A stretch of 64,000 bases of DNA. It comes from a bacterium (GTDB lineage: Bacteria; Myxococcota_A; UBA9160; UBA4427). The notes beneath the pieces were generated by a model. The model did not search any database and was not told where the DNA came from. It was given only the letters and a program-made list of their open reading frames with translations. Below, one piece after another: positions 15,598-26,792 of this stretch. How positions within the stretch are numbered: position 1 is the first letter of the stretch; each line of letters opens with the position of its first letter. Both the position numbers and the translations under genes were made by a program. The stretch lies in assembly GCA_024742285.1 (NCBI GenBank), contig JANSYR010000003.1, forward strand, positions 445,657-509,656. Reading direction: 5' to 3'.

Positions 15598-16704
15598 TCA
15601 GATGGCTTTCTTCGCACAGTGTTCGACGCAGCGGCCGATGGCTCTCGTCTCGATTCGACCGAAGTAGCAGTCGTCGAGCCACTTCGAGAGCCGTGACCGG
15701 AAGGGCATCAGGCGTCGGGCGAGGATCGCGTCGAGCGTCAGCGCCCGCTTGATCAAGCCCAGCGCCACCGCCGGTGGACCATTCCGTCGGTTCTCGGATC
15801 GATCCTTCATGTAGTTGCGCCAGACCGTCCAGATCGCGGCTCGATAGAGCATGGATTGGCGGCGCTTCGAGAAGGCGATCGTCTCGCGTTTGTGGTTCGC
15901 ACTCGAGTGGCGAAGCAGAGAATCGGTGAGATTGACGGGAAAGAGCGGGTTGCTCGTCGTGCGCGGTTCTCGGGAATTCGTCCGCTGGTGAAGGAACGTT
16001 CGGTCCGGGAGGCGGCGTAGCGCCGCCGGGTACGAGGTGTGCTCGTCGGATCGGAGCTCGACCACGCCTCCCGGCGGGATCACGCGCCGGAGCAGCTCCT
16101 CGACTCGTTTGCGGGTCGCTCGAGCGTCGGGCCTTCCGTACTTCTTTTCGAGGATTCGCCGCCTGACGGCCTGACTCGGACGCATCACCCCGCTTCGCCG
16201 GAGCTCCGCATCGTTGAAGCCGTAGACGAAGAGTGATGTTCCGACGACCAGGTTGAGGTCCATCGGCCAGTACTGGCTGTGCTCGAAGCTACGAAAGCCA
16301 TCGAGCACGAGCGGCTCGGTCGGGCAGGCGCGCGGCCGGATGCGCTCGTGAAAAAGGAGGCAGTGTCGGCCGAGCCGGTCCGATAGACGACGAATCGTCG
16401 TGTGGGAGACGCCGAACTCTCGCGCGATCTGACGAAAGCCGGAGCACGACACGAGCCGGTGAAACGTGGGGGCGAGCAGGTCCGGGCGTCTCAGCCAATA
16501 GGTAGTGGAGAACGTCTGTGAACTGAAGTTCCGGCCGCAATGGGAACAGCGGTACTTCTGGATCCGGCGAGGTGCTCGGTTCCTGACGTAGAAGCCCTTC
16601 TTGACGAAGCGCCAAGCCCCTGGTTCGCCATGGGAATCACAGCAAGGGTTGGGGCAGAAGGGAGGGCGGTGCAGGCGTGTGGTGATCGACATCCCTTCTG
16701 GCAT
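15598..16704 (-). CDS. Zinc-ribbon DDE transposase
   Basis: A 368-residue transposase. An N-terminal zinc ribbon (Cys17, Cys21 or 22, Cys53, Cys56) is followed by a helix-turn-helix (FRQIAREFGVSHTTIRRL) and a DDE-type core: Asp135 (LVLDGFRSFEHSQYW), Asp220 (VELRSDEHTSYPAALRR) and Glu274 (NHKRETIAFSKRRQSM), with a nearby His/Asn pair (HSSANH). This order resembles IS1 and IS1595 family enzymes. It appears full length and is framed by terminal inverted repeats, so the element may still be active. A second ATG at 16692 is possible. Confidence 0.82.
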   Translation of the reverse strand: MPEGMSITTRLHRPPFCPNPCCDSHGEPGAWRFVKKGFYVRNRAPRRIQKYRCSHCGRNFSSQTFSTTYWLRRPDLLAPTFHRLVSCSGFRQIAREFGVSHTTIRRLSDRLGRHCLLFHERIRPRACPTEPLVLDGFRSFEHSQYWPMDLNLVVGTSLFVYGFNDAELRRSGVMRPSQAVRRRILEKKYGRPDARATRKRVEELLRRVIPPGGVVELRSDEHTSYPAALRRLPDRTFLHQRTNSREPRTTSNPLFPVNLTDSLLRHSSANHKRETIAFSKRRQSMLYRAAIWTVWRNYMKDRSENRRNGPPAVALGLIKRALTLDAILARRLMPFRSRLSKWLDDCYFGRIETRAIGRCVEHCAKKAI

Positions 16705-22338: not shown

Positions 22339-22866
22339 CTAGCGCAGCTGGCGCTCGAGGTCGTCGAGGGCGGCTTCTGCCCAGCTCTCGAGGGTCGCGT
22401 CCGCGGTGCCGCCGATCGGATGGGGGACGACGACGACGCGGGCGTCGGGGAAGCGGAGCTCGCGGGCCATCTGGTCGGCGAGCGCGGCGAACTCGCGGCT
22501 CGCGATCGCGACGGTCGCGCGGCCGCGTTCTTCCAGGGAGCGCGTGTCGTGGAGACTCCACGACGTGCAGCTGCCTCAATCGGCGGTGCCCGTGAGGACC
22601 ACCTCCACTTCGGCGGCGAGGCGATCGAGGAGGTCGGTTTCGCAGGGGGTGGCGGCGGTCTGCTTCTGGAACACGCCCACGAAGGTGGCGCCCGTCCGCG
22701 TCGCGAGGCTTTGGCCCATTGCGCGCAGGAGGTGTGCGGCGCCCGCCTTCCCGTTGTCGAGGGCAGCGATCCGCTTGCCCGCGAGCGCGCCGATCGCGAC
22801 GCGCGCCGTCGGCATCGCGTTCGGATCGACGCTGCCTTCCGGGGAGTAGATGTTCGTGGCGGCCAT
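22339..22866 (-). CDS. UGSC family selenoprotein (selenocysteine at in-frame UGA)
   Basis: A 175-residue protein read from ATG 22866 (AAGGAG 8 bases upstream) to TAG 22339, crossing an in-frame TGA at 22578-22576. The codons around it encode Gly-Thr-Ala-Asp-TGA-Gly-Ser-Cys-Thr, the U-G-S-C signature of a family known to use selenocysteine or cysteine here, so Sec97 and Cys100 form a redox motif. The reading frame stays family-like after the TGA (ATVAIASREFAAL, VVPHPIGGT) and a SECIS-type hairpin starts 11 bases after the UGA. The N-terminal half contains IAALDNGKAGA. The function of the family is unknown; a thiol/selenol redox reaction is likely. It is 62 bases downstream of 22929-24098, probably one operon. 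Confidence 0.88.
22546..22564 (-). promoter_or_regulatory. Bacterial SECIS-like hairpin
   Basis: Reading on the minus strand, 11 bases after the UGA come GTCGTGGA, loop GTC, TCCACGAC: a perfect 8-bp stem. The apical loop starts 19 bases after the UGA and opens with G, as required for SelB recognition in known bacterial SECIS elements. It lies inside the coding region of the UGSC gene. Confidence 0.8.
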
Positions 22867-22928
22867 CGGGTCGAGCTCCTTGTTCGGGGTCGGGGGGTGG
22901 GGGATGGATCGGGCGGGGAGGGATCGCT

Positions 22929-24098
22929 TCAGGGCGCCAGCGGCAGCGTCGCGCTGGCTGTCATGCCCCAGCTGGGGACGACGCAGGAGTGCTTCCCCGC
23001 GCCGCCGGTCACGAGGATCCGGAACTTGTCGGGATCCCGCGCGATCGGCTTGGCGTCGTCGTCGCCCAGGGCCTCTTCCCACTCCGCGTACTGCGCGATC
23101 TCGAAGGCGCGTCGGAAGCGTCCCATCGGGAGTCGCGCGTGTTCGAAGAAGAACTGCTGGACGTCTTCTCGCGAGTAGCCGGCATCGGCGATCCCGTGAG
23201 CGTGTTCCGGGCCGAGGAAGACGAACCACTCCGCGCTCGAGACCGGCGCGTTGTTCGAGCCGAGGGTCGTCATCGTGCTCGCGATCATCTCGAGCGTCTG
23301 CGAAGCCGACCGGACTTCGTGGTCCTGGACGTTGTGCGGGTTCTCGCCGCAGTGGACCGAGACGGCACTCGGAGCGTCGAGTCCGCGGCTGGCCGGGTAG
23401 GGCGCCCAGGGGCTGTCGGCCTGGTTCTCGGCCACGCAGTACGTGTACTTGGACGGTTGCCCCTGCGTGGAGGCATCGCCGGCGCCGGGGCGTGCGCCCG
23501 CCACGTTGAGCATCACGAGGCGGAGTGCCCGCCCGACGGTCGCGTTCGCGCGGTTGCCCGGCCCGAAGGCCCCGAGCCCGGCATTGAAGCCGAGCTCGGC
23601 GACCGCGTCGCCGTGGACGATCAGGAGGGGCGCCACGGGATGCGTCGTCGCGTTCACGCCGCGGAGGTTCACCTCGGCCCGGGTGAGGGCCCGGATCGCG
23701 GTCGTGAGGATCGGGAGCGTTCCGGCGGGACAGCCCGCCATGACGGCGTTCACGGCGAGGGTACGTCGCGTGACGAGACCCCCCCGAGGTGGGAGTGAGG
23801 TCAGGACCTCGTCCGGGTCGACGCCGATCGGGAGGCACGAGAGGGCCCGCTCGACTCGCTCCGGTGTCGGCGGGATCAAGGGGAGTCCATCCCCCCAGCC
23901 GCGACCTTGAGCGAACTCGAGGAAGGCTTCCGGGTCGTCGTCGGGGAGCTCGATGTCGGCGTCGAGGGGGGCCTTCGCGGGGCCCTCGGTATCGGCGCCG
24001 GGGAGCGCACACACGTCGTCCTCGCACGCCCCATCGAGGGGCGGCGTTTCCCTGATGCTCTCGTCGCCTGCCGGGCTACCGTCGATTCGTTGGGTCAC
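22929..24098 (-). CDS. Conserved protein of unknown function, partner of the UGSC selenoprotein
   Basis: A 389-residue cytosolic protein with no family I can name. The N-terminus is acidic and variable with a Cys pair (ACEDDVC); a conserved-looking core starts at GRGWGDGLPLIPPTPERV and continues with AVNAVMAGCPAG, GVNATTHPVAPLLIVHG, GAFGPGNRANATVGRALRL and HCGENPHN. The Gly-, Asn- and His-rich loops suggest an enzyme with bound metal or phosphate, and several cysteines (MAGCPAG, TYCVAEN, VHCGEN) could be redox partners of the downstream selenoprotein. The GTG start at 24098 has only a weak ribosome binding site. Confidence 0.7.
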   Translation of the reverse strand: MTQRIDGSPAGDESIRETPPLDGACEDDVCALPGADTEGPAKAPLDADIELPDDDPEAFLEFAQGRGWGDGLPLIPPTPERVERALSCLPIGVDPDEVLTSLPPRGGLVTRRTLAVNAVMAGCPAGTLPILTTAIRALTRAEVNLRGVNATTHPVAPLLIVHGDAVAELGFNAGLGAFGPGNRANATVGRALRLVMLNVAGARPGAGDASTQGQPSKYTYCVAENQADSPWAPYPASRGLDAPSAVSVHCGENPHNVQDHEVRSASQTLEMIASTMTTLGSNNAPVSSAEWFVFLGPEHAHGIADAGYSREDVQQFFFEHARLPMGRFRRAFEIAQYAEWEEALGDDDAKPIARDPDKFRILVTGGAGKHSCVVPSWGMTASATLPLAP

Positions 24099-24167
24099 TG
24101 TCCATCTCGCGTCGGAATCCTAGGCCATTCAGGCGAGAAGAGTGATCCGAGAAGTGAGGTCCCCGCA

Positions 24168-25379
24168 ATGCCCGAGCTTCCGAAGACGTTGTTCGATCCG
24201 GAGATCATCCGCGATCCCTTCTCCACCCTGGCGATCCTGCGAGAGCACGCACCGGTCTTTCACGACGAGGCGGTCGGTCTCTTCGTCTTGTCGCGACACG
24301 ACGACGTCAAGGCGTTGTTCGCCGAGGAGCATCTGCTCTCCCGCGACCGCAGGCTCGCGCCCGACTTCGTGCCTCCGCCGCCCGGGTCGTGGGCCGAGAG
24401 GATGGACGAGCAGGGGACGGGACGCGCGGAGGGCGAGGACCATCGCGCCTGGCGAGCGCGGCTCTCCAAAGGATTCACGCCGCGCGCGGTCGCTCGCCAG
24501 GAAGCGCAGGTCCGGGAGGTCGTGGCGAAGTTCGGGGATCCGCTGCGGGGGCGAAAGGGCGTGGTCGATCTGGTCGACGCGTTCACGAATCCGATTCCCA
24601 ATACGGTGATCAGCCGGATCGTCGGAATCCCGCCGTATCCGGACGAAGAGGACCGGTTTCGTCAGCTCGCCCAGGACGTGATCCGTCGCTTCTTTCCGAT
24701 GGCAGACGAAGAGAACATCCGTCGGGGCGAGGCAGCCTTCGACGAGCTCGCCGAATGGGTCGGAAAGCTGGCAGAGGAACGGCGCGAGCAGGCCGCCGAG
24801 GATTTCGTGTCCGATCTGATCCACGGCAATCCGGACGATCCGATGACCGACGAGGAGATCGTGATCATCGTCGCGATCCTGATCGCCGCGGGTTCCGAGA
24901 CGACGACGCTCGGGGGGACGAACGCACTCAAGCTGCTGCTCCGGCATCCGCACCAGCTCGAACTCCTGCGAGAGGACCCCGGTCTCGCGAGGGCGGCCGT
25001 CCGAGAGTCCTTGCGATTCGATTTCGGAACGATCGCAGGGTCGCCCCGTTTCGCGATGGAGGACTTCGAGCTTCACGGGGTGGCGATCCCGAAGGGCTCG
25101 GTCGTGATGCTGAGCTCGGCCGCAGCGAATCGCGATCCCCGTGTCTTCGACGACCCGGATCGGTTCGACATCACGCGCGACAACCGGGAGATGCTCACCT
25201 TCGGGAGCGGCCCCCACTACTGTCTCGGCGCGAACCTCGCGTTGCAGGAGATGGCCTGCATGCTCGATGCGGCGACGAGCTTCCTGCCCGAGACGGCACG
25301 GCTCCTCGATGACGAGATCGAATGGGAGTCGGTCGGAATCATCCGCCGCCCGAGCACCCTCCCGGTCCACTTCGGCTAG
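24168..25379 (+). CDS. Cytochrome P450
   Basis: A 403-residue soluble P450 with AGSETT in the I helix (241-246), ESLR as the ExxR motif (280-283) and the heme loop FGSGPHYCLG with Cys352 as ligand. The ATG at 24168 has GAGG 9 bases upstream; an open upstream extension lacks P450 similarity. It resembles the CYP107/CYP125-like range of class-I bacterial P450s in length, but the subfamily cannot be fixed by eye. It is divergent from the UGSC operon and converges with the amidohydrolase at 25584 across a repeat-filled gap. Confidence 0.93.
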   Translation: MPELPKTLFDPEIIRDPFSTLAILREHAPVFHDEAVGLFVLSRHDDVKALFAEEHLLSRDRRLAPDFVPPPPGSWAERMDEQGTGRAEGEDHRAWRARLSKGFTPRAVARQEAQVREVVAKFGDPLRGRKGVVDLVDAFTNPIPNTVISRIVGIPPYPDEEDRFRQLAQDVIRRFFPMADEENIRRGEAAFDELAEWVGKLAEERREQAAEDFVSDLIHGNPDDPMTDEEIVIIVAILIAAGSETTTLGGTNALKLLLRHPHQLELLREDPGLARAAVRESLRFDFGTIAGSPRFAMEDFELHGVAIPKGSVVMLSSAAANRDPRVFDDPDRFDITRDNREMLTFGSGPHYCLGANLALQEMACMLDAATSFLPETARLLDDEIEWESVGIIRRPSTLPVHFG

Positions 25380-25583: not shown

Positions 25584-26792
25584 TTAGCCGAGCGTCCGGA
25601 ACGCGTTGGTGTGGGTCTGCTCCGGGAATTCGCTCGCCGCGAGCGGCACGCTCAGCTCGTCCCAGGTCGGACCGCACTTCTCGGCGAGGGGCTTGAGTGC
25701 CTCCAGGTCGAAGTCGTAGAGCTCTGCGGCGTTCAGGCCGAGCATCTTCCGGGCGTTCTCTTCGCCGACGTCGTTGAACGTATGGCGCAGGGCCAGGCGC
25801 GTGTGGGGGTAGGTGCCTTCGTAGTGGGGGTAGTCGCTGCCCCAGAGGATCCGCTCGGTGCCGATCACGTCGCGATCGCGGATCTCGACCGGCGACGCGG
25901 AGCTCGCGCCGTAGTAGCAGTTGCGCTGGGCGTAGAAGGACGGCGGCTCCGGGGTCGCGACGCCTTCCGGGAACTGGAACTCGCCGGCGACGCCCTTCGA
26001 GATCCGCTCCCACGCCGAGTCGAGGCGCTGGAGCGTGTCCGGAACCCAGGCACAACCGGACTCGGTGATGATGTACTTGAGCTTCGGGAAGCGGTGGAAG
26101 ACGCCCGACAGGATCAGCTGGCTGTAGCTGCGTGTGGAGAAGAAGGGCGTTTCGATCAGGCGGATCGGCAGCGAGATCGGCAGCCGGCCGTAGTCGGGGG
26201 AGCCGGTCCCGCCGTGGTGGTTGATCACGAGCCCCGTCTCTTCGAGCAGCGCCCACATCCGGTCGTAGTCCGGGTGGTAGAGCGGCTTGATGAAGCTCGT
26301 GCAGTCGTCCGGGACGTGGGGCAGGAGCACGCCGCCGCGGAGGCCGGCGTCGGCGATCCACTCGATGTCCTTGATGGCTTCGTCGATGTCGTTGAGATAG
26401 ACGAGCCCGATCCCCGCGCGCTGGGCCGGGAACTCGTCGCACCAGTCCTTGAGCCACCGGTTGTGGGCGCGGATGCCCTCGAGGCGGAGCGGGTAGTCCT
26501 CGGGGCTCGGATTGCCGCAGATGAGCACGCTGGTCCGGAAGAAGGGCGGCACGGTGTTCGGGAAGATGATCTCGCCGACGACGCCGTCGTTCTCCATGTC
26601 GGTCATGCGCGCATCGTCGTCCCAGTTGAGGTGCTTCTTGGAGCCGATGTGCTTCTTCTGGGGGTTCGTGTAGGAACCGCGCCAGTCGTCGAAGAGCGCC
26701 TGGTGCTTGCTGTCGAGGTAATCGCGGTATCGGTTGACCTGGGCACCGGCGTGGGTGTCGGACGAGATGACGACGAAGGGTTCGCTGCTCAT
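25584..26792 (-). CDS. Amidohydrolase-2 (ACMSD-like) metal-dependent hydrolase
   Basis: A 402-residue TIM-barrel protein. Metal-binding features include SSDTHAG near the N-terminus (D-x-H), the histidine pair in INHHGG, and Asp in the late motif LWGSDYPHYEGTYPHT. This is the amidohydrolase-2 family, which includes decarboxylases such as ACMSD and gamma-resorcylate decarboxylase and hydrolases of ring-cleavage products. The ATG has GAGAGG about 4 bases upstream. Substrate unknown; placement between two P450 genes fits aromatic or alicyclic catabolism. Confidence 0.85.
   Translation of the reverse strand: MSSEPFVVISSDTHAGAQVNRYRDYLDSKHQALFDDWRGSYTNPQKKHIGSKKHLNWDDDARMTDMENDGVVGEIIFPNTVPPFFRTSVLICGNPSPEDYPLRLEGIRAHNRWLKDWCDEFPAQRAGIGLVYLNDIDEAIKDIEWIADAGLRGGVLLPHVPDDCTSFIKPLYHPDYDRMWALLEETGLVINHHGGTGSPDYGRLPISLPIRLIETPFFSTRSYSQLILSGVFHRFPKLKYIITESGCAWVPDTLQRLDSAWERISKGVAGEFQFPEGVATPEPPSFYAQRNCYYGASSASPVEIRDRDVIGTERILWGSDYPHYEGTYPHTRLALRHTFNDVGEENARKMLGLNAAELYDFDLEALKPLAEKCGPTWDELSVPLAASEFPEQTHTNAFRTLG

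Follow-up and report, generated by a model that had tools for sequence, protein, structure and literature searches.

A UGSC-family selenoprotein gene and its upstream partner as candidate subunits of a thioredoxin-dependent reductase

In a 64-kb window, the whole stretch of DNA analyzed here, a minus-strand reading frame is interrupted by a TGA codon, which raises the question whether this codon ends a short gene or encodes the selenocysteine (Sec) of a longer protein, and, if the latter, what kind of enzyme such a protein might form. An earlier sequence-only reading of this DNA had proposed that gene callers would stop at the TGA at 22578-22576, that the frame continues for 78 codons with family-like sequence, and that a perfect 8-bp hairpin follows 11 bases after the UGA. 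Coordinates, codon count, and hairpin are all correct on direct reading, and an ordinary gene caller does end at this TGA.

A UGSC gene with an in-frame TGA

The features of the gene are as follows.

22339-22866, minus strand: UGSC-family selenoprotein gene, 175 residues with Sec97; Pfam PF24696, 3.4e-40
22576-22578, minus strand: in-frame TGA, Sec97 of U-G-S-C; TGA kept in 5 paralogues and ~100 relatives
22546-22564, minus strand: bacterial SECIS-type stem-loop (predicted), 8 bp, loop GUC; fixed offset, GUN loop, AGT codon, and covariation
22876-22881, minus strand: Shine-Dalgarno-like AAGGAG ahead of the UGSC start codon, read from the sequence

The frame opens with an ATG at 22866-22864 and, after the TGA, runs through 78 more sense codons to a TAG at 22341-22339. 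Its 175-residue read-through product, with the peptide ...VLTGTADUGSCTSWSLHD... around Sec, contains the predicted Asp-Sec-Gly-Ser-Cys and matches the Pfam UGSC family (PF24696) over residues 6-174 of 175 (3.4e-40, 138.4 bits; gathering cut-off, 25 bits). Because the match spans almost the whole product, the sequences on both sides of the TGA belong to one family, as the earlier reading had recognized for the part beyond it. The window protein shares with this family (PF24696, NF041046) the common U-G-S-C motif, a stem-loop after the UGA, the existence of Sec and Cys members, and an end-to-end profile match. It is set apart by T-S-W-S after UGSC, which marks its subclade, and by a score of 124.2 bits (with C written for U) against the NCBIfam equivalog NF041046, 0.8 bits short of the cut-off of 125. 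Position 97 (Cys, or Sec in its place), G98, S99, and C100 are invariant across 60 aligned members.

UGSC selenoproteins have been known since 2008, when they were described in the GOS selenoproteome (PMC2398784); the window gene adds a new member to a family named then, and its novelty is limited to that extent. Within the host phylum, UGSC genes scoring over the cut-off were found in 68 of 379 genomes, and nearly all of these genes contain a single internal TGA. TGA stands at the Sec97 codon in about 100 relatives, with conserved sequence beyond it, a few copies in the phylum have TGT or TGC there, and UGSC relatives from Actinomycetota, Pseudomonadota, Acidobacteriota, and archaea carry Cys. 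In the alignment that had been proposed as a check, the read-through product pairs end to end with UGSC proteins in which precisely this codon is TGA or encodes Cys, and the family's use of either residue, as stated in the earlier reading, is borne out. In a tree of 138 sequences, Sec and Cys have exchanged at least nine times, at least four of these exchanges being forced by well-supported branches.

The host genome contains four further UGSC genes, and TGA occupies the same codon in all five; a gene caller that reads every TGA as a stop would shorten every one of them. Paralogues are also numerous elsewhere, with about nine matches in one relative (G356). Another TGA-containing UGSC gene, with its partner, lies on the same contig (C3:513381-513899), ~3.7 kb past the window end.

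The downstream stem-loop and the Sec machinery

After the 11 bases that follow the TGA (22575-22565) comes GTCGTGGA-GTC-TCCACGAC (22564-22546), a perfect 8-bp stem with a 3-nt loop. The loop starts with G, 19 nt after the UGA, and the whole stem-loop lies 12-30 nt downstream of the UGA. Folding of the 42 nt past the TGA is more stable than that of ~97% of versions with synonymous codons (z -2.3), which is modest alone; the same shuffle test across TGA sites gives a median z of about -1 and is a weak test here. The TGT or TGC copies tested showed no excess folding stability. That this gene's hairpin is only moderately unusual against synonymous shuffles, and that an ordinary gene caller ends at the TGA, could be taken to favor a coincidental hairpin next to a TGA that is a genuine stop or arose by an inactivating mutation or a sequencing error.

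Comparison among relatives argues against such a coincidence. The stem-loop region is found at the same offset in 97 distinct TGA sites, the sequences of which are related, so that the counts do not represent independent events, and its 3-nt loop is GTG, GTC, GTT, or GTA in 87 of them. The serine codon in the loop, which provides the top A-U pair and the GU of the loop, is AGT in all 81 cases, whereas in the partner genes AGT accounts for 5.1% of the codons for serine (p about 3e-105); since amino-acid conservation does not demand AGT, this bias far exceeds what relatedness alone would produce. The pair below the top A-U is C-G in 69 sequences and G-C in 24, a compensatory change, and standard pairs fill 92.9% of pair cells, compared to 84.8% in column shuffles (maximum 86.5%). 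One of the five host paralogues (L018) fits the standard stem poorly, and a scan of the window against Rfam returned no RNA family at the gathering threshold. Judged from these alignments, the conserved position, loop, and codon are the signature of selection on RNA structure, as for bacterial SECIS elements; the hairpin seen in the single sequence is hence a feature held in a fixed place across relatives, with compensatory change and extreme codon bias.

Searched family by family, the host assembly (6.5 Mb, 56 contigs) proved to encode a tRNA-Sec with anticodon UCA (67.8 bits; gathering score, 47), SelB, SelA (458 bits), and SelD (259 bits). The sequence-only reading had made its interpretation depend on the presence of selC and selB; both genes were found, and together with selA and selD they complete the set of four for which it had proposed a search. 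With this machinery present, the AGT codon in 81 of 81 loops, and a TGA at the same codon in the five host paralogues and about 100 relatives, each with conserved sequence beyond it, a true stop has next to no chance of being the right explanation; the paralogues and relatives exclude a stop, a pseudogene, or a sequencing error. The window gene is almost certainly a true selenoprotein gene, and the selenocysteine interpretation is supported.

Two further observations concern the Sec-related genes of this genome. The SelD match (C16:123873-124790, L056) sits inside a 791-residue open frame and may be part of a fusion protein. At a separate locus (L169, C15 near 136325), the frame of a PrdB-like protein contains a TGA (...ALMVPV-U-PVCHQS...), after which comes a hairpin that has a CAGTCC/GGACTG stem and a GTG loop; this protein represents a second selenoprotein family.

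The partner protein and its gene neighborhood

The selenoprotein identity of the gene is in itself ordinary; the interest of the locus lies in a near-obligate partner, the coupling to thioredoxin, and a probable kinship with PrdB. Beyond the sequence-only reading, the analysis brought out the partner gene at 22929-24098 and five UGSC-partner pairs in the genome. The genes upstream of UGSC are as follows.

22929-24098, minus strand: partner gene, up to 389 residues, 62 nt upstream of UGSC
23907-25379, plus strand: cytochrome P450 (PF00067) gene, divergent neighbor; true start probably downstream, near 24165
25584-26792, minus strand: Amidohydrolase_2 (PF04909) gene; homologues adjoin UGSC in the same subclade, an association only

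The partner gene has a GTG start as listed, with a conserved core beginning near residue 55, and encodes a ~360-aa protein that matched no family in Pfam or NCBIfam and is labeled 'hypothetical protein' in public plasmid annotation. Exactly five relatives of it occur in the host genome, each adjoining one of the five UGSC genes. Across the host phylum, a partner lies within 3 kb of 98 of 106 UGSC copies, always on the same strand, and three of the eight copies without a nearby partner are close to contig ends. The pairing extends to all 48 Cys-type loci found in other lineages, Natronomonas and an Archaeoglobi genome among them; in several of these loci, partner and UGSC form one continuous frame. 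Such single frames, apparent natural fusions, were noted in both Sec and Cys lineages (L145, L071, L195, L199, L200, L202, L222). The 2008 study (PMC2398784) reports UGSC fused to a conserved domain, 'Unknown_1', which may be the partner described here.

What the partner might do was approached through its predicted structure and conserved residues. The model (pLDDT 88.7) has only weak fold matches, and conserved positions include D70, G71, T151, T152, G189, and R190, with no invariant Cys. A search of solved structures by sequence with the UGSC and partner profiles found no meaningful relative. With the partner model as query, class I fumarases head the Foldseek list (E about 1e-4), and this ranking is the basis for an alternative in which the pair is a lyase or hydratase, the partner being a distant class I fumarase relative and the Sec/Cys protein an accessory redox switch. 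The TM-scores of these matches are only 0.23-0.28, however, and the lack of an invariant Cys makes a fumarase-type iron-sulphur site unlikely, so that the partner is not assigned as a class I fumarase. A net reduction would also fit thioredoxin coupling better than a lyase reaction, and the lyase or hydratase explanation is accordingly an improbable one. Assignment of the partner as a PrdA/GrdE homologue was likewise rejected, as no PF09338 match emerged with E values as high as 10 allowed; nor was a pyruvoyl processing site identified in the partner.

Short cysteine-containing motifs were seen at the partner N terminus. Residues 25-30 of the window partner read CEDDVC, a motif common to the window's subclade, and C-G-P-E-G-C occurs in another partner clade at the place where a third clade has a thioredoxin domain; these C-rich motifs are possible redox tails.

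The wider neighborhood was considered with caution. P450 and amidohydrolase families are both very abundant in these genomes, too abundant for such neighbors to serve as proof of a pathway, and all that was therefore kept, as weak context, is that UGSC and amidohydrolase genes lie side by side in the subclade of the window. In other phyla, CoA transferase-like genes occur in 20 of 48 Cys-type loci, and further neighbors include SDR, acyl-CoA dehydrogenase, and CoA ligase genes (families named by eye). Together, the neighbors suggest catabolism, with UGSC and its partner at a step in the breakdown of an organic compound. Elsewhere in the window, a transposase-like gene with zinc-finger-like CxxC motifs (15598-16704, minus strand) sits between TonB-receptor-like and sulfatase-like genes, all named by eye.

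Fold, thioredoxin link, and proposed reaction

An AlphaFold2 model of UGSC based on 60 sequences is confident (pLDDT 94.9) and shows five alternating strands and helices, with Sec opening the helix after strand 3. Its best structure matches include flavodoxins at TM about 0.4-0.5, values that make flavodoxin-like a statement of fold class, not of family, and no thioredoxin is among the 50 matches listed. This model bears on an alternative proposal in which Sec is real and UGSC serves as a general thiol-disulfide oxidoreductase or antioxidant of thioredoxin-like fold. The proposal follows the 2008 metagenome study (PMC2398784), in which the fold is deemed likely to be thioredoxin-like, and it can draw on the UxxC motif, which UGSC does have in common with thioredoxin-like UxxC selenoproteins, and on the thioredoxin genes and domains nearby. 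In contrast, the predicted flavodoxin-like alternation of beta and alpha elements leaves a thioredoxin fold unsupported, and the near-obligate large partner is a second difference from those selenoproteins. One specific large partner in 98 of 106 and 48 of 48 loci, combined with catabolic neighbors, suggests a metabolic enzyme. A general oxidoreductase is for these reasons unlikely, if less so than a lyase.

Profile comparison points to a different relationship. In an hhalign comparison with ten PrdB-like sequences (one of them, the first, hits TIGR04483 PrdB at 9.5e-45, below the equivalog cut-off), UGSC gives E 3e-6, with Sec placed on Sec and resolving Cys on resolving Cys; with 138 UGSC sequences the value is E 9e-6, compared to 0.02 to 0.8 for 12 controls (the partner, a reversed control, and ten families without relation to UGSC). 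As the match extends over only about 76-79 residues, with a probability of 83-88%, homology is likely rather than certain; PF07355 was not listed in a single-sequence Pfam scan of UGSC. Based on these profiles, UGSC is likely a free-standing protein related to that half of the PrdB/GrdB family (TIGR04483, PF07355) which carries Sec. Both have UxxC after a predicted Rossmann strand and a link to thioredoxin, the profile likeness lies in the segment around and after Sec, and the PrdB-like protein of the host genome is a selenoprotein in its own right. UGSC differs in that the long N-terminal part of PrdB/GrdB is absent and that its partner has no detectable PrdA/GrdE match.

The thioredoxin link is seen directly in relatives. 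Fused to the N terminus of 45 partners is a domain containing DCPTC or a close variant of it, and all of these partners are paired with UGSC proteins that have a Cys shortly after UGSC; searches with the domain hit thioredoxins (solved structures, best E 8e-5; Pfam, 0.004, below cut-off). The gene order is trxB-trxA-partner-UGSC in Arthrobacter and partner-UGSC-trxB in Roseovarius, trxB lies three genes upstream of the pair in Variovorax, and it is also present in three further loci (L187, L207, L209). The glycine reductase of clostridia also depends on thioredoxin and is encoded together with trxA and trxB. The window's own partner carries no fused thioredoxin domain, and no trxB was found in the 64-kb window, so that the reductant of the window pair is one that we infer.

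Taken with the PrdB/GrdB likeness, these data lead to a model that we consider somewhat better than an even prospect, in which the locus encodes two subunits of a thioredoxin-dependent selenoenzyme, a PrdB/GrdB-type reductase. At UGA codon 97, SelB and tRNA-Sec would insert Sec under the direction of the downstream stem-loop. UGSC would be the small subunit, a flavodoxin-like Rossmann domain with Sec at the N terminus of the helix that follows strand 3 and a putative resolving Cys three residues further on (U-G-S-C). The upstream ~360-residue partner, predicted to bind UGSC in a physical complex, would most likely build the substrate site. The selenolate would attack the substrate and displace a leaving group, so cleaving a carbon-heteroatom bond reductively in the manner of proline or glycine reductase, and, by analogy with PrdB/GrdB, the bond cleaved may be next to a carbonyl. 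Cys100 would resolve the adduct as a selenenylsulfide, and thioredoxin, fused to the partner in sister clades and encoded next door elsewhere, would restore the selenol.

More generally, UGSC and its partner could constitute an unrecognized, widespread class of two-subunit, thioredoxin-dependent Sec/Cys reductases, a non-pyruvoyl cousin of proline and glycine reductases that acts in bacterial and archaeal catabolism, with several paralogous systems per genome for different substrates; we hold this extension more tentatively, at slightly less than even chances. With its conserved partner, its coupling to thioredoxin, and a likely tie to PrdB, UGSC turns from a family of unknown function into a testable enzyme, and the cultivable hosts of Cys-type pairs (Sphingobium, Arthrobacter, Roseovarius, Variovorax) allow genetics without Sec. 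On the Arthrobacter plasmid NZ_CP012477.1 (L229), a gene annotated as phosphosulfolactate synthase directly adjoins the trxB-trxA-partner-UGSC cluster.
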